Shown piece by piece: positions 2,025 through 64,000 of a stretch of DNA of 64,000 bases. Below the pieces are notes generated by a model. It searched no databases. It saw only the letters and a list, made by a program, of their open reading frames with translations, and was not told the origin of the DNA. Position 1 is the stretch's first letter. Each line of letters starts with the position of its first letter. The position numbers were made by a program, and so were the translations under genes. The stretch is from Combretum micranthum (taxonomy: Eukaryota; Streptophyta; Magnoliopsida; Myrtales; Combretaceae): the NCBI GenBank assembly GCA_024138025.1, contig JAMXBD010000639.1:1-64000 (forward strand). The letters are read 5' to 3'.

Positions 2025-2351
2025 TGTCACGCCCCAACGGTACCCTAAACGTGACAGTCCGCCACACTCAATATTAAAGCTTAAGTATGACAACCTTAGT
2101 CATTTCCAAAAGCTTTTATATTAAGTGTAAGGCTTACTTTCACAATTTTAGAGGACCATATATGGAATAATGAAGTTTAAGGAGATATAAAAACATATTA
2201 AGAAAAGAGGATTCACAATGAATATTTGTTCATAGCAAAACTATGCATACTTAGGAATAACTCCCTAAATTACTAAGCTATTATAAAAATATTTGCATGC
2301 TAATACTATGATGTACTTTTATCCAGAGTTCTAATATTTAAAAAGGGTTAC

Positions 2352-2393
2352 CTGCCCACATGGTCCACGTGGCCTTAGCCATAAGTACGGAAA
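2352..2393 (-). other. Micro-exon copy in the 3' LTR
   Basis: A 42-nt segment between TTTTGCAG and GTAATC with ATG 11 nt in (2382-2380), matching the copy in the 5' LTR. In the 3' LTR it has no downstream ORF1, so it is probably unused. Confidence 0.5.
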
Positions 2394-4460
2394 CTGCAAA
2401 AGGTAGCTATCGGGGTATAAGCTAATAGGCTTAGTGAGTAATTCCCAAAATTCATACTCAAGGAAAAATCAATCAAGTTTATTATTCAAACATATGAAAT
2501 GTTCAACCACGTGAGCATACAAGACATATGACTTTCCGGGAATCATATGTTGAATGAATTTACGCCCTTCATTCGGGGTTGGGGATTCAGGCCAATTACG
2601 GCCACCACTTTTAAAAACAATTTTATAGATCTTACCGGCTCCTATACGCCATCAAAAACTTGTAGTTTATTACCGGCTCCTACTAGCCATCAAAACTTGT
2701 AGTTTATTACAGGCTCCTACTAGCCATCAAACTTGTAGTTTATTATTCACCTACTAGCCATCACTTTTGTAGTTCTTACCGGCTCCTACTCGCCACTTAC
2801 ATGATATACCGGTTCTGTCTACCACCACTATTATACACTTGTCCCACCAATTGTATAGTAGTGAATGCAATGTGACTCAACATATGAGTGCATGAAAATT
2901 TCTTTAGTTAAGGTCTAGTTAATTACGTTTAAATTCCTTCAAGTGATCAATCAATTTCAAACACTTCAAATACTAATTCACATACAACTTTATTACAAAC
3001 AAGTCGAATTTCGATATACTTAGTATTCTTTCAACATATTATCATACACTTCCTTTTATTTTTCTTAAATTCTAGTGCAACTAATTTTACAAGCACAATC
3101 AAGAGTATGAAAATAACGGGAAATAACTCACGATGCCATTGACGTCTACTTCTTCTAAGCGGATGAGTCGTTCACACAATCCACTAAACCGTAATAGTTC
3201 TCGGGTGAAGAAATCCTTCCTCGGGTTCACCTAACCAAAGAAAATACCCATAATGAGTTTTTCTTGAAGATTTCTTGAATTTTGACAAAACAATGTCAAA
3301 GAACGTCAAAGTTCGTATGGAAGAATGTTCCAACTTAAAATGGCCATAACTTGGTCATTTTAACTCGGAATCGCGCATATAATATACCGATTTCTATCTA
3401 CTCGAAAAGATCTACCCATTTCTAAAATTATTTCCCACAAACAAAGCCATATAGGCTCCGAAAAACTGGTGACAAAATTCACCACGGATTTTCAAGTAAA
3501 AACAACTTTGGTTCAAGAAATCAAAATTTGTTTGATAAATACTTAGTTATCTATATAGTTGGAAAATTCTCTTTTTATAACTATATAACTCATACTTAAG
3601 CATGCTCAATGTTTTGTTGTCCAAATTATTTTTCTTAAGTAAAACAATGTCGGTTTGAAGCTTTTCGAAATTGTTTTCGTGAATTTCTTGAAATAATACC
3701 TTGTTTTCTTTTTTCTAAAAACGTTTTATGTTGGTTTTATTTATCTTTTTCTAAGTGACTTTTGAAAATAAATTTTCTACTTTCTAAGTTACACTAATAA
3801 TATTTTTTGAAGTTTTTCTAGAAAATGCTTTTCCTTATTTTCTTGTGTAAATTCCTTTGTTTACTTGTTTTGGCAAAAATCTTTACTTGATATTTCTCAT
3901 TCTTTTTCTCATGTCTCCATTTCCAAAAACAATTACTCATGCATGAAAATTTGTTTTTTCCTTATAAAAACAAAGTGGAACAATTAAGGACTTTTTGTAG
4001 AAAAACTAATTTCTATAATCTTATTAACTTTTTCTTGTAACTTGAAAAGTGAAAATTTTATTCTTTTCAAACCATAATTTTCTTTGCCTATTGTTTGCAA
4101 GGTCTTTACTTAAAATTTCCTTAGTCATCCATCTTATTTTCTTTATGAAAAGAACCATTTTTGTCAACAAAATATTTTCTTTTGAAAAGCAAAGTAAAGT
4201 AACAAAGATTTAACTAGCTTTTAAGTAAAAATAGTTTCTAAATTCATAGTGAATTCTTTTTTAACTTGAAAATGAAGAGTTTATTTTTGTTATCTTATAT
4301 TTTTATGTTTCACATAAACTTATTCCTAAGTGACAAAAAGTCTTCTTTTATTTCATTATCTTTAGAGAACAAAACTTTTGGACAACATTCTAAATGAACA
4401 TGATTATGAGAATAATAATAAACAAAGTAACATAAAGCATAAATAATAAAATCAAGTATT

Positions 4461-4579
4461 GGAGTCTTAGCTTTTTCAAGGCTCCCGGGACTAAGAAATA
4501 AACTAGTCCCATAAAGAATGAAAGAAGAAAAACTTGTTTTGACTTGATTAGGACAAGTCTAAGACTAGAGACTAGTCTT
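4461..4579 (-). other. Four-hairpin block H4-H1 (3' LTR)
   Basis: On the transcribed strand four perfect or near-perfect stems follow one another: AAGACTA/TAGTCTT, GACTTG/CAAGTC, GGGACTA/TAGTCCC and GGAGCCTT/AAGACTCC (one mismatch). The block recurs in eight LTRs of the window. Confidence 0.6.
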
Positions 4580-5015
4580 ATAAACAACTTGAAATAAATA
4601 AATTGCATTGAAGTAAATAAATTGCATGAAAGGTAAATAAATTGCAAGATTATGAGCTTATATGCTCTAAAGAATATGTATATAGTTATTTAGATATAGT
4701 AGATAGTTATGAACATAAAAGAAATATAAAGAACATAAAGGAAATATAAGGAACATAAAGGAACATAAAGAAATTGATATTATGAACAAAAACAAAGTAT
4801 GAATCTAATGTTGCTTTCTTAACCTTCATGGTTTTAGAAAACATACACTAAGCTCATACTAAGTAGATGAACATGGAGACTTCTTGAAGAACTTTTACCT
4901 AAAGAGATGAGCCTAAGAGAACTTCTTGAAGAGCTTCTTGGAGAGAAATTCTAGAGAGATTTTGAGAGAGTAATTTTAGTATAGAAGTGGTGTGAAAGAA
5001 GTGAAAGAGAGGGGG

Positions 5016-5023
5016 TATTTATA
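5016..5023 (-). promoter_or_regulatory. TATA box of the 3' LTR
   Basis: TATAAATA on the minus strand, in the same CCTATAAATACCCCCTC context as in the other family A LTRs, about 700 bp into U3. Confidence 0.75.
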
Positions 5024-5724
5024 GGAAAATGGGAGTGATTTTTGTGTGATTTAAATAAATGTAAATTAAAACAAATTGAGAGGGAAGAGAGAGAGAGATG
5101 TGCCGGCCACTTTTGAGAGAGAAGGGAGTGATTTAATTTTTTGTATTTTGTTAAATAAAAGATGTAATAAGTAAGATAGATGTGATATAAAGTTATGGGA
5201 AAGGTAAAAAGTTAAGATAATAGGTTATGTAGAGTGTAAGAGTAGGTGTAAGAAAAAGTAGAGATAAAAGAATAGTGTAGAATAGTAATGAATAGTGTAA
5301 TGTAAAGTAGATATGACAATTAAAGTACCGGTAGTAAGAAAATACGCGTATAATAGCTATATCTGTTATTTTTACTTACCGAAAAATTATGAAATTGATA
5401 TTTTTGGAAAACTTATATTTTTACGAGTCTAACGGTATATTCGGAATATTTTTACTATCCGGGCTTCCGGACACGTTTTTCGAGAACTGCGTCCGATCGG
5501 GTTCGAAGGACACCGAATTCGCGAAACTGAAACTTTTATAAACCTATGGTTATTACGGTCTATTTGAGCTACTTAACCCAACTTCGTTTTTCCGGGCCAA
5601 AGAAAACGGCAATGCCGGACTTAGATTGATACGGTAAACTAGGGTTTTGTTGACCTTTAGGGTTTCGTTTGACTTCCGGTTAGGGTTTTGTGCTAAACCG
5701 ATTCCGAAAATTTAGGGGTTTACA

Positions 5725-7243: not shown

Positions 7244-8670
7244 TTAGGATATCACTCTATTCATCCACATAAAGAAAACTTTACATTCTCCTGCTATAAC
7301 ATCAATAAAAGGAGGTTGGGGATTGACTGGTTCCTGCATCGCTGTTATAGCCTCTAATGCATCCAAGGCAGTCAAGTTTCCATTTCTTTTGTTCACTTCT
7401 TCACCTATCCATCGTCCCTGCAAGTTGTATACTCGAATTCCTGAAGCAGTAGGTCCAGGTCTGCTTTCACTTCCACTTCCATTTCCTTTTTCTACTCTTA
7501 TAGGAACAACTCCCTCTGATGATCTTGATAGAATGTTCCTTCCTTGTGGACAGTTGTTGGCAAAATGTCCTTTCTGATTGCAAACATAGCAAGCATCTAT
7601 CCCTCTGTTCGGGCATTTTGACATCTTATGGTTTGTATTTCCACAAAAGAAACATTTTCCAAATAGTGAGGGCACTTCTTCTAGTGTGCTCCATTGCACT
7701 TCCAGCACTTAATACCTCTTGGTATGATCCTTCTATTTTCTTGATTTTCTTTGGTAGGCATGAGATGGGGTTCTATGAAAAATTCCCTTTCGACGATCAG
7801 GTCTTCTTCCTCTTCTATTCTTTCTCTCCTTTTCCTTGCTCCTTCTACAATCCGAGCTCTTTCCACTAATTCTCGAAAATTCCTTATGTCAAATTCTTCC
7901 AACTTCATCCTTAGGTCTTCGTCCAATCCTCCTATAAAGACTTGCCTTTTAATTCTTCACTGTACTTATAGGAGTCTGGTGCATATTGCAACAATCTACT
8001 GAACTCAGTCTCATATTGTTCGATTGTTCTTCCTTTTGAGCGATTTGCAAAAGTCCGCACTGTATCTCACTCTTAAACTTCCTGGAAAATAATTCTCCAA
8101 AAACTCATGTCTAAACATTTCCCAAGTGATTGGAGTCATTAGATCTCTTTTCCTTGACTCCCACCATATCCTAGCGTTTAGACGACGAATGTTCCATACT
8201 TGATTTGCAAATGGGGTGGAACTTCATATGCATCAAAAGACATCTCTATTTGAGATAACCAATCTTCTGCCTCCTCCGGCTTGTCATAAGCTCCTTCAAA
8301 GAAGCGGTTACTTTTGATGAAGTTAGGCAACATGCTTTTGTATGGTCTTGCGGTGGAGATGGAGGTAGGGTGCACTTTGGCTATGCATGTTCCTATGCAC
8401 AGATGCCTCTGTTGAAGCCTGTTGTGGTAGGGTTGGTATAGACACTGGGGCTGTCGCTGATGCGGTTGCTGTGTTGCTTCTTGTACGGGTGCTTGTGCTG
8501 GCATATTTTGCCTAATTTCTTCTAATACGTGGGTTAGGTGTCCTAACGTGGCGTGTAAGTCCCTTTGAGGTGCGGCGCTCCTTGTCAGCAGGTTGATCTG
8601 CTTCTATTCTGGTTGGTTAGAGGCGCTTTGTTCCCTTCTTCGTCTATTCCTATTTCGGCTGTTTTAAACT
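7244..8670 (-). pseudogene. gag: gag, broken by frameshifts and a stop
   Basis: A Ty3/gypsy-type gag read on the minus strand. It starts near 8650 with an Arg-rich stretch (RNRNRRRREQ) that has no visible ATG and is preceded by TTTAAAACAG, a possible splice acceptor. The capsid-like core (PEEAEDWLSQIE at about 8265, then a WWES motif near 8150) is followed by ELVERARIVE near 7860 and by CCHC knuckles CX2CX4HX4C at about 7650-7560 (CFFCGNTNHKMSKC and CYVCNQKGHFANNC). A third, altered CWKC knuckle precedes them. The frame stops at 7244 about where the protease would begin. I count one in-frame TAG and at least four frame changes. Because the two LTRs also differ mainly by homopolymer indels, some of these may be assembly errors. 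Gag would form the particle and bind RNA. Confidence 0.88.
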
Positions 8671-8900
8671 TTCTAAGTTAGGTTTGTAAAGTTTTGATAA
8701 CTTAATTAAATTTTTGCCGGAATTTGGGGAAATATAACGGAAATTTAAATATGCATAAAAACAAAACAATCTCTGAAATCAAACTTAGAGCATAATTATA
8801 GAAATAAGGTTCATACATGAAATCGGAAATAAGATAAATCATAAAAGAAAATCACACAGAAATACCAAACATTGTTCCGAAAATTAAAAGATAGACCAGA
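8671..8900 (-). other. T-rich spacer between ORF1 and gag, possible intron
   Basis: On the minus strand this 230-bp stretch is rich in T and in stops. It follows the ORF1 stop (TGA, 8903-8901) and ends TTTAAAACAG just before the first gag-like codons. A convincing donor is not obvious. Confidence 0.3.
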
Positions 8901-9965
8901 TCATGAATCTAGTCTATTACAAAATCTAAGCTGGATTTCTAGGGATATGCTTCGTTTTCCTCTCCTTCCTTTTTCATTCTTCGGGAGCATCTCCCGGGTT
9001 GTTGCTGGACGAGCCTGGGTTCCAGTCCCTAATGAATTGGCTGAAATATCTCTCCTCTTCCGGACTGCCTCCCTGGATCTTTCGCGTCCGTCGGTTGACT
9101 CATCTCTAGTCTCCTCTGGTACTATGTCATGAATGGTTCTCCAAATAACGGCTTCATCCGTTTCCATGCTATTGTTCTCGTTGGGTGGAGCACTGTCTGT
9201 ATTCATGGCCGAACTCGTTTCTTGCCTTCCCGGAGTCTGTCGTCCCATTAAGTAGCGGATAATCCTTTCTTCAGTACTGTTACGGGGTTCTTCTTCCGCA
9301 ACAGTGGTCTGATTTCCTTCTTCTGGTCCTGCTTCATCCTCTTCCTCCGGTTCTTCCTCCGAATCTTCACTCTCTTCATCTTCTTCCATAGGCTCTTCCC
9401 TTATTATTGATCCGTCATCCCGCAGACGTAGGGGCTCGTTTCTTCTTAAGTTGGATACCCATAAAGGTAGGCGGCTCCGTGGGTACTTGGGTTGGTGGTC
9501 GTAGCACCTCCTGGTACACTCCATGCCAATGGAAGATGTCGTTGATATCCGCCTTCATCCATTCAAGGTGATCGATCAAGTTGTCGTGGGCGTAAACGAA
9601 CATAGGTCCGATTTTCCTCCAGGTTTGGAAATCTGGAGAAGTTCGTCCTCCATCTTTCCTAAGAACGAATGTGGCTTCCTTCAACATAGGTCTATCTTCA
9701 GCAATGGCCGCGATACGTTCTACCGCGTATATCATTTCCAACTCGGTCAGTTTCTTTCCTATGGGACAGTTGTGGATGGTCTGTACCACTTCCCTCCATT
9801 CCGTTTGTATCATTCCTCTCTTCCATATTTGGAACATTTCACGGACGGTCTTAGGTTGTCCTGCTAAGGCGAACTCTTCACATAGGACTCTAAGCCTCAG
9901 TCGGTAGTCTTCTGGTGTCTCGAAGGGTCCTTTCCGGAAATTCTTAGCTTGGAGACGGGCCTCAT
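8901..9965 (-). CDS. ORF1 upstream of gag, exon 2, function unknown (one apparent frameshift)
   Basis: About 355 codons on the minus strand. The first two thirds look like a folded, mixed helical protein (for example EDYRLRLRVLCEEF near 9910 and IFHWHGVYQEVL near 9530). The last third starts with a Glu/Asp-rich run (about 9400-9300) and ends in basic patches (RKRRD, KGRRGKR). The frame shifts once near 9440 in an AAGAAGAAA run, which may be a sequencing error. The frame is coherent back to 9965, yet its first ATG is only at 9837. Upstream are stops and an AG (CCATAG at 9971-9966) that could be a splice acceptor, and joining there to the phase-1 U5 micro-exon (10478-10448) supplies an ATG in frame. 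I do not recognise the protein. It is not gag, pro or pol. Ogre elements have an ORF1 in this place, but I see no similarity I can claim. Confidence 0.7.
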
Positions 9966-10447
9966 CTATGGTGATCTATGTAAAAGAAAGATATTAGAAG
10001 ACTAATTCTACCCATTCTACCTCATCTAGGTTTTTCTTATTTCTATCTAAGTCAATTCTTCTTAAGTCCATTTCTATAATTATGATTCCTAGGTTCTTAA
10101 ACCATGCTCTGATACCAACTTAAACTGTCACGCCCCAACGGGTACCCTAAACGTGACAGTCCGCCACACTCAATATTAAAGCTTAAGTATGACAACCTTA
10201 GTCATTTCCAAAAGCTTTTATATTAAGTGTAAGGCTTACTTTCACAATTTTAGAGGACCATATATGGAATAATGAAGTTAAGGAGATATAAAAACATATT
10301 AAGAAAAGAGATCACAATGAATATTTGTTCATAGCAAAACTATGCATACTTAGGAATAATCCCTAAATTACTAAGCTATTATAAAATATTTGCATGCTAA
10401 TACTATGATGTACTTTATCCAGAGTTCTAATATTCAAAAGGGATTAC
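9966..10447 (-). other. Proposed intron 2 of ORF1 (482 nt), spanning LTR end and PBS
   Basis: Donor GCAG/GTAATC at 10447-10446 inside U5 and acceptor CCATAG ending at 9966, after a CTTTCTTTTA pyrimidine stretch. An alternative acceptor ACATAG lies 10 nt upstream (ending 9976) but would put ORF1 out of frame. Splicing would remove the primer site, so spliced RNA would encode protein and only unspliced RNA could be reverse transcribed. Confidence 0.5.
10102..10117 (-). other. Primer binding site, initiator-Met tRNA
   Basis: Minus strand TGGTATCAGAGCATGG, the standard plant initiator-Met primer site, 8 nt downstream of the 5' LTR end (10126). Confidence 0.95.
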
Positions 10448-10489
10448 CTGCCCACATGGTCCACGTGGCCTTAGCCATAAGTACGGAAA
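10448..10489 (-). CDS. U5 micro-exon with the proposed ORF1 start codon
   Basis: A 42-nt segment between acceptor TACCTTTTGCAG and donor GCAG/GTAATC. ATG lies 11 nt in (10478-10476), giving ten codons (MAKATWTMWA) plus one base, that is phase 1. The leftover G joins the AT at 9965-9964 to make Asp and continues as E-A-R-L-Q in the ORF1 frame. Eight further LTRs, three of diverged sequence, keep the same length or nearly so and the same phase. Splicing is inferred, not shown. Confidence 0.55.
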
Positions 10490-10621
10490 CTGCAAAAGGT
10501 AGCTATCGGGGTATAAGCTAATAGGCTTAGTGAGTAATTCCCAAATTCATACTCAAGGAAAAATTATCAATCAAGTTTATTATTCAAACATATGAAATGT
10601 TCAACCACGTGAGCATACAAG

Positions 10622-10672
10622 ACATATGACTTTCCGGGAATCATATGTTGAATGAATTTACGCCCTTCATTC
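10622..10672 (-). other. Paired hairpins X and Y
   Basis: Stem X is ACATATGA/TCATATGT (8 bp) around CTTTCCGGGAA. Stem Y is GAATGAA/TTCATTC (7 bp) around TTTACGCCC. Both stems keep pairing but change sequence in other LTR subfamilies. Confidence 0.65.
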
Positions 10673-10730
10673 GGGGTTGGGGATTCAGGCCAATTACGGC
10701 CACCACTTTTAAAAACAATTTTATAGATCT

Positions 10731-10905
10731 TACCGGCTCCTATACGCCATCAAAAACTTGTAGTTTATTACCGGCTCCTACTAGCCATCAAAACTTGTAG
10801 TTTATTACAGGCTCCTACTAGCCATCAAAAACTTGTAGTTTATTACAGGCTCCTACTAGCCATCACTTTTGTAGTTCTTACCGGCTCCTACTCGCCACTT
10901 ACATG
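10731..10905 (-). repeat. U5 tandem repeat cassette, type I
   Basis: About four and a half units of roughly 37 bp, each built on CCGGCTCCTACTAGCCATCA followed by CTTGTAGTTTATTA. Other LTRs carry unrelated repeats at exactly this site. Confidence 0.85.
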
Positions 10906-12577
10906 ATATACCGGTTCTGTCTACCACCACTATTATACACTTGTCCCACCAATTGTATAGTAGTGAATGCAATGTGACTCAACATATGGAGTGCATGAAT
11001 AATTTCTTTAGTTAAGGTCTAGTTAATTACGTTTAAATTCCTTCAAGTGATCAATCAATTTCAAACACTTCAAAATACTAATTCACATACAACTTTATTA
11101 CAAACAAGTCGAATTTCGATATACTTAGTATTCTTTCAACATATTATCATACACTTCCATTTTATTTTTCTTAAATTCTAGTGCAACTAATTTTACAAGC
11201 ACAATCAAGAGTATGAAAATAACGGGAAATAACTCACGATGCCATTGACGTCTACTTCTTCTAAGCGGATGAGTCGTTCACACAATCCACTAAACCGTAA
11301 TAGTTCTCGGGGTGAAGAAATCCTTCCTCGGGTTCACCTAACCAAAGAAAATACCCATAATGAGTTTTTCTTGAAGATTTTCTTGAATTTTGACAAAACA
11401 ATGTCAAAGAACGTCAAAGTTCGTATGGAAGAATGTTCCAACTTAAAATGGCCATAACTTGGTCATTTTAACTCGGAATCGCGCATATAATATACCGATT
11501 TCTATCTACTCGAAAAGATCTACCCATTTCTAAAATTATTTCCCACAAACAAAGCCATATAGGCTCCGAAAAACTGGTGACAAAATTCACCACGGATTTT
11601 CAAGTAAAAACAACTTTGGTTCAAGAAATCAAAATTTGTTTGATAAATACTTAGTTATCTATATGTTGGAAATTCTCTTTTTATAACTATATAACTCATA
11701 CTTAAGCATGCTCAAGTGTTTTTTCCAAATTATTTTTCTTAAGTAAAACAATGTCGGTTGAAGCTTTTCGAAATTGTTTTTCGTGAATTTCTTGAAATAA
11801 ATACCTTGTTTTCTTTATTTCCTAAAAACGTTTTATGTTGGTTTTATTTATCTTTTTCTAAGTGACTTTTGAAAATAAAATTTTTCTACTTTCTAAGTTA
11901 CACTAATAATATTTTTGAAGTTTTTCTAGAAAATATGCTTTTCCTTATTTTCTTGTGTAAATTCCTTTGTTTACTTGTTTTGGCAAAAATCTTTACTTGA
12001 TATTTCTCATTCTTTTTCTCATGTCTCCCATTTCCAAAAAAAATTACTCATGCATGAAAATTTTGATTTCCTTATAAAAACAAAGTGGAACAATTAAGGA
12101 CTTTTTGTAGAAAAACTAATTTCTATAATCTTATTAACTTTTTCTTGTAACTTTGAAAAGTGAAAATTTTATTCTTTTCAAACCATAAATTTTCTTTGCC
12201 TATTTAGTTTGCAAAGGTCTTTACTTAGAAATTTCCTAAGTCATCCATCTTATTTTCTTTATGAAAAGAACCATTTTTGTCAACAAAATATTTTCTTTTG
12301 AAAAGCAAAGTAAAGTAACAAAGATTTAACTAGCTTTTAAGTAAAAATAGTTTCTAAATTCATAGTGAATTCTTTTTGTAACTTGAAAATGAATGAGTTT
12401 ATTTTTTTATCTTATATTTTTATGTTTCACATAAACTTATTCCTAAGTGACAAAAAGTCTTCTTTTATTTCATTATCTTTAGAGAACAAAACTTTTGGAC
12501 AACATTCTAAATGAACATGATTATGAGAATAATAATAAACAAAGTAACATAAAGCATAAATAATAAAATCAAGTATT

Positions 12578-12695
12578 GGAGTCTTAGCTTTTTCAAGGCT
12601 CCCGGGACTAAGAAATAAACTAGTCCCATTAAAATGAAAGAAGAAAAACTTGTTTTGACTTGATTAGGACAAGTCTAAGACTAGAGACTAGTCTT
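12578..12695 (-). other. Four-hairpin block H4-H1 (5' LTR)
   Basis: Same four stems as in the 3' LTR, about 440 nt downstream of the TATA box and inside the proposed intron 1. Confidence 0.6.
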
Positions 12696-13011
12696 ATAAA
12701 CAACTTGAAATAAATAAATTGCATGAAGTAAATAAATTGCATGAAAGGTAAATAAATTGCAAGATTATGAGCTTATATGCTCTAAAGAATATGTATATAG
12801 TTATTTAGATATAGTAGATAGTTATGAACATAAAAGAAATATGAAGAACATAAAGGAAATATAAGGAACATAAAGGAACATAAAGAAATTGATATTATGA
12901 ACAAAAACAAAGTATGAATCTAATGTTGCTTTCTTAACCTTCATGGTTTTAGAAAACATACACTAAGCTCATACTAAGTAGATGAACATGGAGACTTCTT
13001 GAAGAACTTTT

Positions 13012-13013
13012 AC
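13012..13013 (-). other. Conserved splice donor after the TATA box
   Basis: TTTAG/GTAAAAG about 120 bp downstream of TATA. AG/GTAA at the matching place is seen in LTRs at 4898, 14681, 18450, 20061, 24040, 28244, 38894, 57406 and 61599, including otherwise diverged families. Confidence 0.5.
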
Positions 13014-13131
13014 CTAAAGGAGATGAGCCTAAGAGAACTTCTTGAAGAGCTTCTTGGAGAGAAATTCTAGAGAGATTTTGAGAGAGTAATTTTAGTATAG
13101 AAGTGGTGTGAAAGAAGTGAAAGAGAGGGGG

Positions 13132-13139
13132 TATTTATA
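13132..13139 (-). promoter_or_regulatory. TATA box of the 5' LTR (element promoter)
   Basis: TATAAATA on the minus strand followed by CCCCCTC and CACTTCTTTCACAC, the probable start region about 30 bp downstream. The same arrangement is kept in every family A LTR here. Confidence 0.8.
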
Positions 13140-13838
13140 GGATGGGAGTGATTTTTGTGTGATTAAATAAATGTAAATTAAAACAAATGAGAGGGAAGAG
13201 AGAGAGAGATGTGCCGGCCACTTTTGAGAGGAGAGAGGGAGTGATTTAATTTTTGTATTTTTTAAATAAAAGATGTAATAAGTAAGATAGATGTGATATA
13301 AAGTTATGGGAAAGGTAAAAAGTTAAGATAATAGGTTATGTAGAGTGTAAGAGTAGGTGTAAGAAAAAGTAGAGATAAAAGAATAGTGTAGAATAGTAAT
13401 GAATAGTGTAATGTAAAGTAGATATGACAATTAAAGTACCGGTAGTAAGAAAATACGCGTATAATAGCTATATCTGTTATTTTTACTTACCGAAAAATTA
13501 TGAAATTGATATTTTTGGAAAACTTATATTTTTACGAGTCTAACGGTATATTCGGAATATTTTTACTAGTCCGGGCTTCCGGACACGTTTTTCGAGAACT
13601 CGTCCGATCGGGTTCGAAGGACACCCGAATTTCGCGAAACTGAAACTTTTATAAAACCTATGGTTATTACGGTCTATTGGAGCTTCTTAACCCAACTTCG
13701 TTTTTCCGGGCCAAAGAAAACGGCAATGCCGGACTTAGATTGATACGGTAAACTAGGGTTTTGTTGACCTTTAGGGTTTCGTTTGACTTCCGGTTAGGGT
13801 TTTATGCTACACCGATTCCGAAAATTTAGGGGTTTACA

Positions 13839-13843
13839 ATTAA
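13839..13843. repeat. TSD ATTAA, right copy
   Basis: Matches 2020-2024 and restores the family B LTR reading TTGATTAAACCC. Confidence 0.95.
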
Positions 13844-15173: not shown

Positions 15174-17604
15174 AATGCTTGACTATTTTATTATGTTTCT
15201 TTACTTACAAGCAATTCTTTTTATCTTATTATGTATTATCTTTACTTTTACATTACTACATGTTCATGCATAATTAAGAATATTGTTATCCTAAATAAAA
15301 ATAAAAATGGGTTCTTTCTTAAATAAAGAAAAGTAAACTAGATTTCTTAACAAAAAGAATTTTCAACAAAAAGATATAAGTTTTGTTTTAACTCTTTTTA
15401 AAGGATAAGCTAACCATAAATTCTAAAAGAATTAGTAATGTAGATTTCTTTAAAATAATAAAAGGAATTCTTTTCTTTTATAAACCAAACTAAATACTCC
15501 ATAAATGAAGAATTTTAGCATTATAAGATTTTAACTCAACCATACCTTTTATAAAACTTAAATAGGTTCATTATAAACTTTGAAAATCACCTACTAAGAA
15601 AGCCTCTTCAAAACTTAATTTTTATATGTTGTTATTCTCTTTTCAAAATTAAAAATGAAATTTTGCTAAGTTCTAATGTTAGCAATTCTTTATTAAGAAA
15701 TCTTTTCTTATAAACTTGTCCAAGAAAATTATTCTACTATTTAATAGATATTAAGAATAAAACAAGTTTTTCAAATCGAAATAAAGTCAACTCATTAATT
15801 TGAAAACCAACCTAGAAAAATAAAATTTGCTAAAAAGTAAAGTTTTAAAGGTATATCTATTTCCTAAAGAAGAGAAAGAATATAAAAAGAGGAAAACATA
15901 CATTTAACACAACTTCAAATATTTGACCACATCAAAAACTTAAAAGGATATTTTGAAAAGTTTATTTTTCAAATCACTAGAAATAAAGTTAGTAAATAAC
16001 TTAAAGAAACAAAAATTTTTAAAATGAATTTACTTTTGAAAAGAGAGAAAATGAAATTATAATAGGAAAACATTTACTCATAACAACTAAAATATTTTTT
16101 TTTTCCTTCTAACAATTCAGAAAAAGTAGAAAATCTCAAAAGTTTTATCATTTAAAAACCATCAAAGACAAATTATTTATGAAATATCAATATTGAGATA
16201 ACCTATCAAAATCATACATACAATATGAGTATAAAATATATGTTCAAAGGGTTTTTCAACTATATATTTATCCACATATTTTGCTTAAGGATTTTTGAAT
16301 AAAGTGAAGTTTGGAAAAACCATATTTTGCGAACTATAAATTCGTAACTATTCTGTACCGTAGTATTTTCCAACCCAAATGGCTTTTTATGACAAAAATA
16401 ACCTTAGAAATGGATAGATCTTTTTGAGTAGGTAGAAAACGGTATATTATTTAAGCAATTCCAAGTTAAATTGACCAAGTTATGGATAGTCTTCTTGATT
16501 AGGTAATCCCGAGGAGGAGTATTCATACCCGGAAGATTATTTTGATTAGTGGATTTACCGATCGACTCATCCATAAGAAGGATAGATCCTCATGGCCAAG
16601 TGAGTTTATTTCCTACCTTTTTACGTACTTGGTTGTGCTTGTAGCTAGAGGTACTAAAAGTAGGGAAAGATGAAAATGAACTATGTATGATAATATTGGT
16701 TGAAAATAATGCTAACCATACCGAGACATGAATCGTTGTTAATTAACTCGTGTTTTACTATTATTATATTGAAGTGTGTGCAAATTTTGTGATCACCTTT
16801 AAATTACTTTAATCATATACTATGAATTATACTAATTGATTCATGTATATCATGTAGTTAGATTCATTGCATGAGCTGCTATTCTTGAGGGGACAAGAGT
16901 ATGGTAGCCGGGTGTGTAGTAGCCAGAAATCTGCAAGATGGGCGATTAGGAGCCTGAAAGAACTATTTTGAGATGGGCGAGTATGCGCCTGAAATAAACT
17001 ACATGAGTTGGATTTAAAGATGGGTTTTAAAGAGCCTAGAACACCTAACCCTGAATTGAGGAGTAAATCCATTCAAACATATCATTTCCGGTAGATCATA
17101 TTTATTGCTTGATCACTTGCTTGATGCATTCATATGCTTGTTTAATAACTTGATTGAAATTATTTATACAAGTACGTTGATTCATGAATATTCTCACTAA
17201 GCTAGTTATGCTTATACTCCGATATACCTTTGTTGTACAGGACCTATATCTTTTATGCCCGAGGACTTCATATACTCAAGGGGATGATGTTTTAGAAAAG
17301 CTTCTGGAAACCTTTTGAAGATCTTAGGTTAAATATCTTTTAATGTCTTTTAGTGTTAGCATTATCTTGTGGTGAGAAAGGTTAAGTTGATATTATGATT
17401 GTTTGAAGAATTATAGGGGAAAACCCCTAAGATGATGTAAGGATTATATTCTCTTAATGATAAATTGGATGATTATTTAGATTCTTGTATGCTGTATTTA
17501 CTATCTCAAACTATATATCCCACCGGTGTCTCGTATTGTTGTGATAGATGCCTTACATATAGTGTTGAAAACTTTCGCATGACTTTGAGAAGTCATTCTT
17601 AAGT

Positions 17605-24868: not shown

Positions 24869-26322
24869 GCAAGTACGATTTTACAAGAAAAAAAAAAACT
24901 ATTTTTCTTAAGTCAAGTAAATTTCAAAAGTTTAGCAAAGTAAAAGTTTTTCAAAAAGAATTCTTGATACTACATATATATACATATAGATAAATCATCT
25001 TGTAACCTTCATGACAATAGCTTGTAGGTATTGTATATATACACGATACAATTGTAGAAATAAAGTTAGAAAAGTAATGCCACATACTTCTTGTTGACAT
25101 TATCTAAGTGCATGAGAAATTAGAAATTTCCAACCCTCATGAATCATGCATGGTATTGAGTTATATATTATATAATAGAGTCTTCCAAGATATAATGATA
25201 GCTAAGTATCTATCAAAGCTTTAGTATGATGTTTGTTTTGAGGTTAAAAGTTGAATTGTGGAATGGGCAATTCGTGTAGTATTTTGTACCCTACTATTCA
25301 TGGAACAACCGACCTCATTTGTTGGAATAACTCTAAAAATAGATAGCTCTTATCAAAGGTAGAAATCGGTATATAATATGAGAAATTCCAAGTTAAAATA
25401 ACCAAGTTATAGCCATTTTAAGTTGAAATTTCCTCTTAGACGAATTTTGATGAACTTGATAGAATAGAATTTATAAGTTCATTCAAATTTCATAGAAAAT
25501 ACTCACTAGGGTTATTTCTTTTGATTAGGAGAATTAGGAGATGGACTAGACCTCCCCAAGAACTATTACAATTAAGTGGATTTCTATGCCATGGCAAAGT
25601 GAGTTCACTATCTTAAAGTTTTATGCTTATGCTTGTGCTTGTGCTTGTGCTTGTAATATTAGTGGCATTAGAATTAGGACAAGATAAAATTGATTGTATG
25701 AATATGATTTTATTATGGGTGAATGAATAATAAGAATATCGAAATAAGCTTGTTGTAATTATTTGAATTATTTAGTGTAGAATTGGATTGTCAGTAATAT
25801 CTATGATCACACATAAACTGTTAAATTATTATGCCATGATCTTATAATTAAATTGACATGAATACCATATGTGAGTCACATTGCATAGGTTATTATACCT
25901 TTGTGGGAAGAAGGCATAATAGCTGGGCAATGAGGGGCCTATAAACTCGAATATTGGCATAATGGCCAGAAATTTAAATTTTGGTGTATAGGCCGGAATT
26001 AAAAATGTGTGTGGGTAGGCACCTGTATCAACCATAGTATAAATGAAAAATAGGTGTGGGTGGGTACTTATATCAACCACAATAAAAAGTGAGAAATTTA
26101 AATGTTGGTCGTATGGGCTTGAAACACCTAACCCCGAATGAAGAGCGTAAATCCATTCAACATAAGAATTTACGGATGGTCTTATGTATTGTATGCTCAC
26201 ATGTTTGTGCATTTCATATGGTTGTCAATAACTTGTCCTATTACATACTGTTGTTGAGTATGTAATTTGGGAGTGAGACTCACTAAACTCGTAAGCTTAT
26301 ACCCAATAGTTTCCTATTGCAG

Positions 26323-26361
26323 TATGAATATTTATGGTTATCTCTGAGAAGTCACTTTGAG
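26323..26361 (+). other. Micro-exon in family C LTR
   Basis: Acceptor CCTATTGCAG, then 11 nt, ATG (26334), nine codons plus one base, donor GAG/GTACAG. The ninth codon is TGA and would be CGA before a CpG transition. An earlier ATG at 26324 is out of this frame. Confidence 0.4.
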
Positions 26362-28059: not shown

Positions 28060-28519
28060 CCCCCCTCCTCTTTCACTTCTTTCACACATTCACTACCCAC
28101 AAATTCTTACCAAAACTCTCTCAATTTTTCCTCTCAAAGCTCTCTCAAATTACTATCTCAAAACTCTCTCAAAATAATTCCACAACAACTTCCACCAACA
28201 ACAAAAACCCATAACCACATAACCATATCAAAGTCTTCTTTAGGTAACCCCTTTATGATTCTTTCTTCTTCTTTATGTCATGTAACTTTACATGACCATA
28301 GTATGAGTTTCCAAATACTACAAGTTGTGGAAACTACATTATGTTCATGTATTGTTCTTGTTCATGCCAATCCATTTATGTTTATGTTGATTTATTATTG
28401 TTTATATATCTATACATATTCTTTAGAGCATATAAGCTCACTTGCAATTTATTTATTTCATGCAAAGCAATTTATTTACTTTTCCATTGCAAATTTATTT
28501 ATTTATTCCTTGATGAAAT

Positions 28520-31805: not shown

Positions 31806-34800
31806 TGTCACGCCCCAAGGGATACCCTAAACGTAATAGTCCGCCACACTCAATATTAAAGCTTAAGTATGACAACCTTAGCCACTCCCAAAAGCTTTTG
31901 ATATTAAGTGTAAATCGTGCTCTCACAAATTTAGAGGACCATACATGGAATTATGAAGTTTAAGAAGATATAAGAACAGATTAAGAAAAGAGGATTCATA
32001 ACATTCATTGATTCATAATAGTGATCTTACAAAGCTTAGGGACATTTCCCTTATTTACAAATCTATTACAAGAGTATTTCTACAACTTATCCAATGCTAA
32101 CTTTATCTTGAGATTCCTTAACTAAAAGGGAAATACTTGATTGTAGGGTCCACGTAGCCTCAACCACAAATATGTAAACTGCAAAAGATATCTCTAGGGG
32201 TATAAGCTAATAGGCTTAGTGAGAACTATTTTCATAAATAACTTCTTGTAACAAAATTTCAAACAAGTTGTTTAATCAAACAAATGGAATGCAACATATA
32301 CGTGGGCAAACAAAGCATATAGTTTTCCGGGAACTATATATTGAATGGATTTACACCCTCCATTCGGGGTTTGGTGATACGTAACCTCAAAACAAGTAGT
32401 TTTAGTTAAAAAGATTTATACTTTCGACCAATATCGCCAAGCATATGAAGTCTACTTGAATTGAGCCTTGCTTTCGGATCTTCCGCCAAGCATTTCCTTC
32501 ATGTCGTTAAGCAACCGCTTTTGGTCACTCCACCAAGTGTTGCTTTCAACCTAAGCTACAATCCTTCTCACCCAAGGATAATAACCCAATGCAATGTAAC
32601 TCACTTCATGATATGCATGAATCCATTTATTTATGATATCAAAACATTATTTTTATCAGATTTAAGGTGATCAAAGAATCTTATACAAATCAAGTGTTAT
32701 ACTAAAACAAACATTAAATCAATTCCAGCCTCGATATTCTTAGGATTCTTTCAAAGAATTATTTTACATACATCTCCATTTATCTTTTCTTAATTCTAAT
32801 GCAACTAAATTACAAGCACAACAAGTAAAGCAATTTAAGGAAATAAACTCACAATGCCAAGACGACGATTTCTCTAGCGGATGAGTCACCCACACACTCC
32901 ACTTAATCGAAATAGTCCTCGGGGTAAAGGTATTCTTCCTCGAAATCACCTAATCAAAGAAAATATCCAAAATGAGTATTTCTTGTTGATATTCTTGAAT
33001 TTTGACAAAACAATGTCATGAGAACGTCAAAGTTCGTATAAAGGAGAGTTCCAATTTAAAATGGCAATAACTTGGTCATTTTAACTCGGAATTGCGCATA
33101 CAATATACCGATTTCTACCTACTCGAAAAGATCTATCCATTTTTAAAACTATTTTCATCAAACTAAACCTTTTAGGCCTTGAAACAATGGTGATCAGATT
33201 CACTACGAATTTTCTTGTTGTCCATTCATGTTTCTTTAAGTAAAACAATGATAATTTGGTGTTTTAAAAATCTATAGTTTAAGAGAAATCATTTTGTAAA
33301 TTTTTTAAAATAAGTACTTCAATTCTTTTGTTTTCAAAGAATTTCCTTATGTTTGACTTATTTATTTTTTCCTAGATGACTTTTTGAAGAGTAATTTTCT
33401 TCTTTTCTACATTCTCTATATTAGTGTTATTTTTCCTATTTATTTTCTATACAAATTTTCTTTGACCATTTGTTTAAAAAGATCTTAGTTTGAAAATTCC
33501 CCTTCCTTTCTTATGTTATGTTTTTAATAGAAATAATTTTTGTATCAAAAATCATTTTCTTTTTGAAAAACAAAGTGAAATAACAAATGATTTAAAAAGC
33601 TTTTCATAACAAAAATAGTTTCTAAAATTGTAGTGAGTTCTTTTAATAACTTGAAAAGGAATGACTTTATTTTGTTAAACCATAGATTTTATATTTCCTA
33701 TAAACTTATCCCTAAGTGATAAAATCTCCTTTTATTAATTATTTTTAGAACTTAAAAAATTTGGACAACAATCTTAATGAACATGATTTATGAAAAATAA
33801 TAGCAAAAAAAATTAACATAAATAATAAATAAAGTCAAGTATTGGGAGTCTTAGCTTCTTGAAAGCTCCGGGACTAAGAAATAGATTAGTCCAAAAGAAA
33901 ATAAAATAAAATAAAGAAAATTTTGTTTGACTTGATGAGAACAAGTCTAAGACTAGAGACTAGTCTTAAAATAGCAAGAATTAAATAAATTGCAATGAAA
34001 TAAATAAATAACTTACATTGCATGAAAATAAATAAATTACAAGTGAGCTTATATGCTCTAAAGAATATGTATATATATGTATATAGATGCATAATAATAC
34101 TTAGATATAATAACAAGAACAAGAACAAGAACAAAATAAAACAATATAAAAGTGGTTTTGGAATTATTTTGAGAGAGTTTTGGGAGGATATTTGAAGAGA
34201 GTTTTGAGTAGAGAATTTGTGAGTAGTAATTGTGTGAAAGAAGTGAAAGAGGATATGGGTATTTATAGGAAAATATGGAGTGATTTTTGAGTAATTAAAA
34301 TAAAAGAAAATTGAAACAAAATTGAGAAAGAGGGAAGAGGGGGTGGCGGCCATAGTATAAAGGAGAGAGATTGTGTTTTATTTTTTGTATTTTTGTTGAT
34401 TAAATGAAGTAATAAGTAAGGTAGATGTAAAATAAAGTTATGGGAAAGGTAAAAAGTAAAGGTTATAGGTTATGGTGTATGTAAAAGTAGGTGTAAGAGA
34501 AAGTAGAGATAAAAGAATAGTGTAGAATAGTAATGAATAGTGTAATGTAAAGTAGACATGACAATTTAAGTACCAGTAGTAAGAAAATATATGTATAATT
34601 ACGATATCTGTTATTTTTACTTGCCGAAAAATTATAAAACTGATATTTTTAAAATCCTTATATTTTTACGAGTCTGACAATATATTCGGAATATTTTTAC
34701 TATTTCAAACCCCGGGACACGTTTTTCAAGAGCTATGTCCGATCGGGTTCAAGACGATTTGCGGTTTTACTAATCTGATCTTTTTAAGCTTTTTTAGGTA

Positions 34801-41354: not shown

Positions 41355-41395
41355 TTCCGTACTTATGGCTAAGGCCACGTGGACCATGTGGGCAG
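41355..41395 (+). other. Micro-exon
   Basis: 41 nt (one base shorter before the ATG), ATG at 41365, ten codons (MAKATWTMWA) plus one base, donor GCAG/GTAATC. Confidence 0.5.
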
Positions 41396-54637: not shown

Positions 54638-57600
54638 TGTCATGCCTCAAAGGGTACCCTAAACGTAATAGTCTGTCGTATGCTAAACGAAACTTAAGAA
54701 TCACTACCATAGTCATTCAAAAGTCTTGTGTTAGTATGTAAGGCATTCCCTTACGACAATAGAATACATAAACAATTGGAGATAGATAGTTCAATTTGAT
54801 AGGATAAGCATAAAAACATAAACCACAGATATCTCAGGATTAGTTACAAAGCATTTAAGGGGCATTCCCTAGCTACTCAAGAGTCTAGGTATCATCTTTT
54901 AGGAAAAACCCGATCGTTTAAGGTTTACTACTAAAGGCTATATAAAACTAATTATAATCTTCTAAGGAGATAACTCTTAGTTTCGTATTACCTGATTTGG
55001 CCAGGTCCGAGGATGCGGCCATATGTACAGAAACTACATTAGAAAAAAACTATAGGAATATAAGCTATGCTAGCTTAGTGAGTTTCACTTTTAAAATTAA
55101 ATACTCAACAAGCAATATATATCAGACAAGTTATATTAACAACCATATGAAATGCACAAGCACGTGAGCATACAATACATAAATCTTTCGGGGAGTCTTA
55201 TGTTGAATGGATTTACGCCCTCCATTCGGGGTTAGGTATTTCAAGCCCATACGACCATAGATTTCAATTTTTCTCATTTACATTATGGTTGATATAGGTG
55301 CCCACCCACACACAATTTTGTAGTTGATGCAAGTGCCTACACTACTACCATTTCAATTCCAGCCATTATGCCAACATTCGAGTTTACCGGCCCCTCGTTA
55401 CTCAGCTATTATGCCTTCTTTCCATAAATGTATAATAACCTATGCAATGTGACTCAACATATGGTATGCATGTCAATTTGATTATAAGATCATGTCATAT
55501 TAATTAACGATTCATGGGTGATAGATATTGCAGAAACTTCAATTCTATACTAAATCATACAATATTTACAATGATTTCATTCCGATATTCTTATCATCGA
55601 TTCAATCAATTTGAATTCACATGCACATTCTAATTTTTTCTTTCCCTAAAGCTAATGCCACTATCGTTACAAGCACATTCAAAAGCATATAATTTGAAGA
55701 TAGTGAACTCACTCGGCCATGGCCTCTGGTCTCTAATGGTAGTGATCCAGAAACATGAATTCCCCCCGATTCCAAAATCACCTAAACGAAAGAAATACCC
55801 TTATGAGTATTTCATACCACACTAATTCCAAACTTTTCAAATAAAACCATTTGAGTTCGTAATTTTCGTAATAATTAGAAATTCCAACTTAAAATGACCA
55901 TAACTTGGTCATTTTAACATGGAATTTCACAAATAAGCTATCGATTTCTATCTACTTCGAAAGATCTATCTATTTATGATGTTATTACTAAATTCTGAAA
56001 ATTCTTAGGTCTCAGAATGCTCAGATAAGATATAATCTGTAACTAGAATTTGCAATTTCGAAATTGTTTTGTGAAATTTGCATTATTTCTATCAAGTATA
56101 TTATACGTGCTTGCAATATCTACAAGTTACGATCATGAATGACATATGAGCTATCTACATATTAATCCTTAATTATTTTTTATTGAAAAGAATTGTTTGG
56201 AAGACTTTTACTTTGCAAAAATTTCAAGAACACTTTATTAGAAAAACTAGCTTTATTCCTTTGAAAATCATACATATTTTTACTATGATAAGGCCTTGAT
56301 GTCCTATATACCTAATACCTTCATTATCTTAATATATTTCTTCATTTAAATGTTGGAAAATAGGTGTTTTAAGTGTTTTTGCCTAGTGACGAACTTTGCA
56401 CAATTTCTAGAAAGGAAAATGTTGTTTGATCTTAGGTGGAAAACTTTTCCTTTATTTTATGTTTCTACTTTAATAAAACACATTTACTCTTATAAAAATC
56501 ATGTCTTTATTATATCTATTCCCTAATACTTCTATTTTTTTTATTAAAATACTCATTTTGACATTTCGAAATAGTTGTTTAAATGGGGATCATTCTTAGA
56601 TCTTAATTTTGGGAAATTGTTTTTGAGATTATTTCTTGTGAAAAACTCATTTAATGTTTCTAAAATTATGTCCTAATCAAACCTACTCCCTGAGGCTTTC
56701 ATTTCTTTAATAAAACTTTTGTTTCAGGGTTGAAACACAGGTGTTTTCTTGGCATTTCACCCTAGTTAAGAATTTCAACATTTTTGTTGGGTTTGAATCA
56801 TAGATCTAACTTAACTTTTACAACCCTCTTCTTGTTTTGAAAATTTCTCTTAATAAAACTAATCTTATCTTATAAAAATCACTCTTTTATGATACCTATC
56901 ACCTAAGCCCTTCATTTTATATGTAAAATCTTCATTTTGAAGTTGGAAAATATGTTTTCTAAATGGTTCTTTCTTAAGATCCGAATTTTAAAAATCACTT
57001 TTTGATAGAAACAAAATGGATCTTGAGTTTTGATCAACACCTTCCTTAAGAATATCATGTAGCAAGTCTTTCATGCATGTAGCTATGTCATTTTAACTAC
57101 TCTAAACAAGTAGATCTACTATACTACATATGTTATGAATATAAATGCATCGTGAACAATATGTGGGTGAGAATAATAATGAAAATATATGCACAAAATT
57201 TCTATAAGAACAATATATAACAATAATATATCAAAATACTAGTATATCAACTTTAATAACAAGAGCTACACATTATGATGGGAAGGTCATCATGTTTTAG
57301 TATTTCCACATCCCTGGCATAAAGCTTATGGGGATTTTTGGTGGAACCACACATGTATGACCTTGCCATTCCATGTTTTTATGGTGGTAGGGTCAAGATC
57401 TGTTACCTATTTAGTGTTTGGAGAAGGAAACTTGAAGAAAACAAAAGTGTTTGTGTGTATGCTTGAAGGAGGGGGTCACGGCAAGAGTAGAGAGGAGAGG
57501 GAGAGAATTTTGCTTTCCAAAGTTTGATCTATTGAAAAAGAAGTGAAAGTGAAAAGTGAAAGGTGAAAAAGATATGATATAGGAAAAGAATTTAGGGTTT

Positions 57601-63507: not shown

Positions 63508-64000
63508 CTTGTATGCTCACGTGGTTGTTGCATTTCATACGTTTGAATAATAAACTTGATTGATAATTTACTTCGAGTATGAATTTTGGGATTTACTCAC
63601 TAAGCCCATAAGCTTACACCCCTATAGTATTTTTATTCTCAGGAACACCTATTTTGTGCCCGAGGTCTTCCAGTATCCGTATACGTTTTATGTTGAAGCT
63701 TTTGGAGGAAATCTACTCGAAGACTTAGATTAGAATTCCTTTGAAATCTTTAATTTTGGATGTTATGAAGTTTATCTCGATCCTTGGAATTAGCGGGGGT
63801 ATGCCCCTAAGAAATTATGTAACAGACCTTTGGTTATTTATGATATGATATACTTTATTTCTGGATTCTTGTATGTTTATCTTTACTTGCTTAAACTATG
63901 CTTCCCAAAAGCGTCTCCTATTACCGTGTTAGACGCCTTACATATAATACTAAGGCTTTCGCATGACTAAGGTAGCCATTCTTAAGCCTTGATATTATAT

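Follow-up and report, generated by a model that had tools for sequence, protein, structure and literature searches.

Predicted spliced exons in the LTR of a Combretum micranthum retrotransposon and a reading frame without its own start codon

A retrotransposon insertion and its reading frames

The window, that is, the whole stretch of DNA analysed here, comprises 64,000 nucleotides of Combretum micranthum contig JAMXBD010000639.1. A single retrotransposon insertion on its minus strand hosts the finding described below. We delineated the following parts.

10126..13838, minus strand: 5' LTR (TG...CA) of 3,713 bases, aligned to the 3' LTR, with the flanking duplication TTAAT
2025..5724, minus strand: 3' LTR of the same insertion; the TTAAT duplication lies at 2020-2024 and 13839-13843
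10106..10117, minus strand: primer-binding site TGGTATCAGAGC, inside both of the downstream introns predicted below
9418..9975, minus strand: first part of ORF1, an exon with the predicted acceptor CTTTCTTTTACATAG/ATC at 9975 in phase 0 and no start codon (80 rows, 303 pattern matches, frame test)
8904..9554, minus strand: later part of ORF1, acidic, in another frame in the window copy
8660..8920, minus strand: T-rich, intron-like stretch before gag, up to 52% T
8500..8658, minus strand: 5' part of gag, with a predicted acceptor AAAACAG/C at 8658 in phase 2, like the E2 donor described below; frame broken in the window copy
7247..8223, minus strand: gag, with a Retrotrans_gag-like piece at 8014-8223 and CCHC knuckles at 7247-7708 (Pfam); frame-broken in the window copy

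We take the primer site to be of the tRNA-Met type. The two LTRs differ by 37 substitutions and 47 indel events, many of the latter in short homopolymers, which is probably a sign of long-read assembly errors; the reading frames discussed here are probably affected too. Both ORF1 and gag are frame-broken in the window copy, and each was found only once within the window by tblastn. Since assembly errors make frames in single copies unreliable, we based the analysis on comparing copies, using patterns and copies from the 1.86 Gb assembly.

For ORF1 we collected 80 rows, made up of 30 of 150 scored places, 40 further ones and 10 of 39 LTR stretches. They correspond to 79 places, since one element is present twice; the window copy is among the rows. 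Two ORF1 copies (L072 and L102, G000 C2616) lie 8.27 kb apart on the same contig and possibly belong to LTR-sharing elements.

ORF1 evolves as code upstream of any ATG. Over its first 23 codons (9975-9907), the synonymous share of codon differences is 0.61 in the ORF1 frame and 0.11 in each of the other two; from 9975 to 9829 the values are 0.66 versus 0.15 and 0.12. Two ORF1 subtypes, represented by four rows, differ synonymously at 14-15 codons and conservatively at 6. The original prediction had ORF1 open back to 9965 without an early ATG. The absence of an ATG holds, and the opening reaches further, to 9975. The triplet at which a start would be expected reads ATA in 78 of the 80 rows (L045 read from the alignment), GTA in 2 and ATG in none. 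An in-frame ATG within the first 22 codons is absent from 79 of 80 rows, the remaining row having a private one at codon 11. A genome search with the deciding base left free gave 303 matches, and all among the matches listed have ATA. We found no Pfam domain in the first part of ORF1. A protein database yielded 37 candidate homologues, none significant, and there were none in viral contigs or in plasmids. A homologue 45% identical to ORF1 does exist in a second LTR family, described below.

The gag assignment comes from Pfam, with zf-CCHC at 5e-9 and Retrotrans_gag at 2e-4, just under Pfam's cut-off. Like ORF1, gag begins without an ATG: in 11 of 11 rows its first 154 nt contain none, whichever frame is read. 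Fusion of ORF1 to gag through a donor at 8920 was considered and dropped, as copies showed ORF1 stopping ahead of that donor.

A predicted coding micro-exon and a conserved start codon in the LTR

The LTR itself contains several segments with exon-like boundaries, which we call E1, E2 and E3.

10448..10489, minus strand: E3 core, a 42-nt micro-exon that in frame 0 codes for FPYLWLRPRGPCGQ (frame test), with the predicted donor CAG/GTAATC at 10447
11238..11337, minus strand: E2, the predicted start exon, with acceptor TTTTCTTTGGTTAG/GTGAACCC and the end ATG GCA TC/GTGAGT in phase 2
11243..11245, minus strand: predicted start codon of the ORF1 and gag mRNAs, in E2
13014..13113, minus strand: E1, a predicted non-coding leader exon, with donor TAG/GTAAAA at 13013 (rank 15 of 240 GTs)
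13128..13141, minus strand: TATA-box-like CCTATAAATACCCC, conserved in the aligned LTR copies A-F and H
25591..26361, plus strand: second LTR family (J), with E2 ATGGCAAA/GTGAGT and a 39-nt E3 in phase 0, YEYLWLSLRSHFE
54992..55720, minus strand: third LTR family (I), with E2 ATGGCCGA/GTGAGT and a 42-nt E3 in phase 0, FLYIWPHPRTWPNQ

The 42-nt segment had been noticed before, as a stretch between the acceptor TTTTGCAG and the donor GCAG/GTAATC. It is present at 10489-10448, and equivalent segments lie at all nine places where the original prediction put them. An exact pattern for it finds 2,466 copies genome-wide; the reversed pattern finds none. The acceptor block is among the best-conserved parts of the LTR tail. 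In 10 pairwise comparisons of seven diverged copies (the 39-nt J copy being aligned through its shorter donor), E3 is free of gaps, and each pair has 1 to 9 gap events in the 120 nt of predicted intron directly after it. Of the 80 ORF1 rows, 78 contain E3, with a length of exactly 42 nt in 62 of them and another length in 16.

We asked in which frame E3 has changed, using the 62 exact-length rows (37 distinct) together with four window copies; the 16 rows of other length were dropped. Among distinct exons, the synonymous share of codon differences is 0.72 in frame 0 and 0.11 and 0.16 in the other frames; with all copies aligned it is 0.70, 0.17 and 0.12. Changes from the commonest exon fall on the three codon positions in the numbers 53, 19 and 165. 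In control regions the synonymous share, over all frames, is 0.12-0.18 in the intron and 0.18-0.29 in the leader. When synonymous change was scanned along the entire LTR, with window copies only, E3 ranked first. Counted from the acceptor, frame 0 encodes FPYLWLRPRGPCGQ in 45 of 62 copies, and one of the two other frames contains a stop in all 62. E3 has thus evolved as code, in frame 0. In window copy G its last codon is a stop.

This frame changes how the segment is to be read. The original prediction placed the ORF1 start codon in the segment itself, at an ATG 11 nt in that leaves the segment in phase 1. In the window segment the ATG and, counted from it, the phase are as described, and GTG does replace ATG at 32178 and 44453. 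The layout differs in two other copies, at 41355 (41 nt, ATG 10 nt in) and at 26323 (39 nt, a stop in the ATG frame). The proposed comparison across genomic micro-exons bore out coding conservation, in frame 0 instead of phase 1. The ATG arises from overlapping Leu and Trp codons (TTA TGG), and it is missing in 7 of 78 ORF1-bearing rows, 6 of which still encode Leu in frame 0. Nor does the copy at 54992 encode an unrelated peptide, as had been thought: its frame 0 gives FLYIWPHPRTWPNQ, similar to FPYLWLRPRGPCGQ. Since frame 0 of E3 has no ATG, coding must extend further upstream.

A conserved start codon does exist in the LTR, as had been proposed, in a different segment: E2, at 11245-11243, about 750 bases upstream of the E3 coding segment. 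With a pattern that fixes TGGC and the spacing and allows at most one mismatch, E2 was found in 66 of the 70 ORF1 rows in reach, 10 further rows being too short. The ATG is present in 66 of 66 and the GT of the donor is intact in 63 of 66. When the spacing was left free, ATG stood 8 nt before the E2 donor in 64 of 70 rows and at another spacing in none, with no find in 6. A genome pattern with AT free gave 3,673 matches against 0 for the reversed control, and all the matches listed (about 100, by eye) have ATG. Within the window, a pattern with TGGC, the spacing and GTGAGT fixed and the first base free detected E2 at 12 loci in six LTR families; 11 have ATG and one (copy F) has TTG.

Upstream of E2, the TATA-like element suggests that transcription would start near 13113, at the head of E1. 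The E1 donor is found in LTR copies A, B, C, D and H and is not aligned in E, F and G; copy E has CTTTAG/GTAACC at 28238. The 192 nt of the predicted spliced leader E1+E2 are free of ATG, whereas the unspliced sequence ahead of the E2 start has 35; the absence is weakly significant, given that 5% of composition shuffles likewise have no ATG.

We rejected a second start block, ATG AAG GGC/GTAAAT at 10670, because 25 of 66 aligned sequences have GC in place of its GT. A block at 10685-10560 is conserved in 66 aligned sequences and across LTR families and contains a CATATGA...TCATATG inverted repeat, TTGTAT and AATAATAAA. It may be an RNA hairpin or the poly(A) region, and in the latter case E2 would lie in R and E3 in U5. 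Just upstream of it, at 10910-10730, are tandem repeats of about 37 nt (GGCTAGTAGGAGCCGGTAATAAACTACAAG...), whose number varies between copies.

A predicted splicing scheme and its alternatives

Joining E2 to E3 involves a short stretch ahead of the E3 core.

10490..10502, minus strand: 13-nt prefix that codes for YLLQ if the acceptor is at 10502 and is a pyrimidine tract if it is at 10489 (judged from phase fit and AG-AG spacing versus the weak score and the TAG/CAA ratio)

We propose the following scheme. An RNA starting near 13113 would have E1 spliced to E2, which would remove the ATG-rich leader. E2 would supply ATG GCA TC and end in phase 2. In the ORF1 mRNA, E2 would be joined to E3 at 10502, and E3, whose phase-0 end is at 10448, to the acceptor at 9975, giving MAS-YLLQ-FPYLWLRPRGPCGQ-ITIDEARLQ. 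In the gag mRNA, E2 would be joined directly to 8658, giving MAS-RNR... As the original prediction said of its intron, the predicted intron between the coding LTR segment and the ATG-less ORF1 contains the primer site. Both predicted downstream introns include the primer-binding site, which means that only unspliced RNA could serve as genomic RNA. We put the probability at roughly 0.68 that E2 and E3 are spliced LTR exons giving ORF1 its start codon and N-terminus, with E2 alone likely serving gag.

The phases would fit together as follows. The donor at 10447 and the acceptor at 9975 are both in phase 0, so that the ORF1 acceptor matches the end of E3; the E2 donor is in phase 2, like the acceptors at 10502 and 8658. 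The full set needs 10502, which is weak. With splice-site matrices, acceptor scores are 7.84 for E2, 7.07 for 10489, 4.89 for 9975, 2.46 for gag, 1.48 for 10502 and -0.38 for 9965. The E2 donor is weak as well (3.64), as is the gag acceptor. We read five joins of E2 to ORF1 in the window copy. Only 10502 with 9975 stays open, giving MASYLLQFPYLWLRPRGPCGQITIDEARLQ. Joined at 10489, E2 is out of phase and yields MASFRTYG and then a stop; joined directly to 9975 or 9965, it meets a stop within five residues; and 10502 with 9965 stops after 43. A second AG follows the ORF1 acceptor by 10 nt, out of frame (9975-9966; ATCACCATAG), with CCCTAG in an I-family stretch; it is a possible alternative acceptor.

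Every splice in this scheme we infer from sequence, as we do the choice of 10502 over 10489, and between the two acceptors the signs conflict. The AG-AG spacing before E3 in three LTR families is 13, 13 and 16 nt, all 1 mod 3, which is what coding that begins at the first AG would need. The CAG before 10489 is TAG in 196 matches and CAA in 91, a ratio more in keeping with an acceptor at 10489 than with a Gln codon. On balance we consider 10502 the more likely acceptor. If E3 begins at 10489 instead, the exons would be the same, E3 would have another phase-0 partner upstream and E2 would serve gag only. The score of 7.07 and the TAG/CAA ratio favour this arrangement, and a conserved ATG AAG/GTTAAG at 12944 has the phase 0 it requires. 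That ATG, however, has other leader ATGs ahead of it, the stretch from E2 to E3 yielded no conserved phase-0 start that has a credible donor, and the spacing of 1 mod 3 is kept in three LTR families. We regard this arrangement as unlikely, if a serious contender.

The remaining explanations fare worse. Starting ORF1 at the micro-exon ATG, in phase 1 with the join at CCATAG (9966/9965), gives an open frame in the window copy, and the ATG is present in 71 of 78 rows. But the ATG frame (frame 2) has a synonymous share of just 0.16, the rows lacking the ATG mostly keep Leu in frame 0, and the acceptor at 9965 ranks 196 of 332 AGs, whereas 9975, only 10 nt upstream, ranks 17; we find this start hardly tenable. 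Rather more room, though still little, is left for the view that the LTR segments are exons of a non-coding or short-peptide leader RNA, with ORF1 and gag starting internally or at non-AUG codons. Production of ORF1 and gag from LTR segments is, after all, a prediction from sequence, and the 10489 join yields a peptide of 8 residues; against this, E3 shows coding conservation and shares the phase of the better ORF1 acceptor, and ORF1 code runs upstream of any ATG. Finally, ORF1 might have had an ordinary start codon, lost here by mutation or assembly error, with the LTR segments as decoration. ACCATAGATG does look like a damaged start context, and indel errors are frequent, but a lost or mis-assembled ATG is ruled out by its absence from all 80 rows and from any match listed for the 303-match pattern, and E3 itself is coding.

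The E2-gag part of the preferred scheme is clearly less secure than the ORF1 part. With the acceptor at 8658 in phase 2, E2 would yield MAS-RNR..., and the window copy read in this way stops after 20 residues. Among nine rows with the exact acceptor motif, just one is open beyond 17 residues. The frame breaks where a G/A-rich run carries indels, and these indels are the likely cause; roughly 4 in 5 of about 100 gag matches listed (by eye) have a frame-keeping length through this run.

The I family offers a further instance of the set. One genomic stretch combines an E2 that ends in phase 2 with AGs spaced 16 nt apart (13+3), a 42-nt E3 and an ATG-less ORF1, which starts at the equivalent of 9975 and is 45% identical over 109 residues. 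The last E3 codon is a stop and ORF1 contains one stop, so this stretch is not intact. The primer site was found in 1 of 6 I-family stretches.

A stronger reading is conceivable, in which the genomic RNA of this family would give no protein. One LTR exon would be the sole source of a start codon for ORF1 and gag, every translatable mRNA would lack the primer-binding site, and splicing alone would sort RNA into translation or replication. We hold this tentatively and rate it somewhat below even odds.

Relation to known elements and to other LTR families

Partial precedents exist among animal viruses. The env mRNA of avian sarcoma-leukosis virus has a start codon and a few codons spliced to another ORF, and HTLV-1 and foamy virus have splice donors in R, i.e., inside the LTR. 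In these viruses gag is made from unspliced RNA, whereas here gag too would need a spliced mRNA.

Among plant elements, Tekay-type chromoviruses are the closest in layout. In the available text of PMC11728184 and PMC3485330, sunflower Tekay group 2 and rice Retrosat2, RIRE3 and RIRE8 have a domain-less extra ORF upstream of gag; the LTRs of the rice elements are about 3 kb or more, and those of RIRE8 and Retrosat2 end in GGGCGTGACA. Our element resembles them in having an extra ORF ahead of gag, namely ORF1, which follows the primer site; the rice elements are also similar in LTR length, and RIRE8 and Retrosat2 in the LTR end. As far as these descriptions go, ORF1 can be grouped with the 5' extra ORFs already known from Tekay-type elements. 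The same text reports neither an intron nor an LTR-encoded start for them: "intron" and "splic" do not occur in PMC11728184, and in PMC3485330 "intron" and "splicing" are absent and "spliced" appears once, in a reference title. The window copy matches these chromoviruses in primer site and CCHC gag, but no pol was detected in it: 11 minus-strand pieces of at least 30 aa from 7243 to 5692 gave no Pfam match, including none to reverse transcriptase or to integrase with a chromodomain. We therefore did not assign it to the Tekay lineage. The window LTR pair is spaced 8.10 kb apart, and four more pairs of equal spacing occur in the genome (8.07-8.30 kb); with five such places, the size class seems to lack pol. 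This suggests a family with ORF1 and gag and without pol, mobilised by another element.

Splicing in plant retrotransposons has been described at other positions. Ogre of pea and Medicago, a Ty3/gypsy element, contains an intron that is spliced (PMC6317226), and a long ORF separates its LTR from gag (PMC1142308); according to the text available, its intron lies between protease and reverse transcriptase, whereas the intron predicted here spans LTR and primer site. In the Copia elements BARE1 and EVADE, splicing yields a separate Gag RNA (PMC3735527, PMC12786077). There the intron as described follows the gag start codon, which in our element would itself be LTR-derived. Soybean Diaspora has a long LTR and leader, and splice sites have been predicted for it, the donors within the LTR and the acceptors near the start of gag, but these sites are predictions only, gag has its own putative start codon and the description includes no coding exon in the LTR (PMC1142308). 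The authors of that 2005 paper stated that they knew of no intron upstream of gag, and a 2025 review describes introns as generally absent from plant LTR elements, naming Ogre and EVADE as exceptions in the portion available (PMC12786077). A literature search at the level of titles and abstract openings found no report of a plant LTR that contains a coding or start exon and, since 2005, none of an intron upstream of gag.

The question bears on how LTR elements keep separate RNAs for translation and reverse transcription. If the scheme is true, the translated RNA differs from the copied RNA, and the separation is built into gene structure: the LTR start codon meets the coding region only when the primer site has been removed. 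Long plant LTRs could then contain coding exons, and annotation by ORFs between LTRs would miss the N-termini of the ORF1 and gag proteins.

In LTR families H, K and M, the E3 core was not recognised, though E2 is present. A different second segment follows the same CTCACTAAGC...AGCTTATA block in these families (H 63597-63760, plus strand; K 17194-17300, plus strand; M 58095-58000, minus strand). Family H has about 30 open codons there when read in phase 2.
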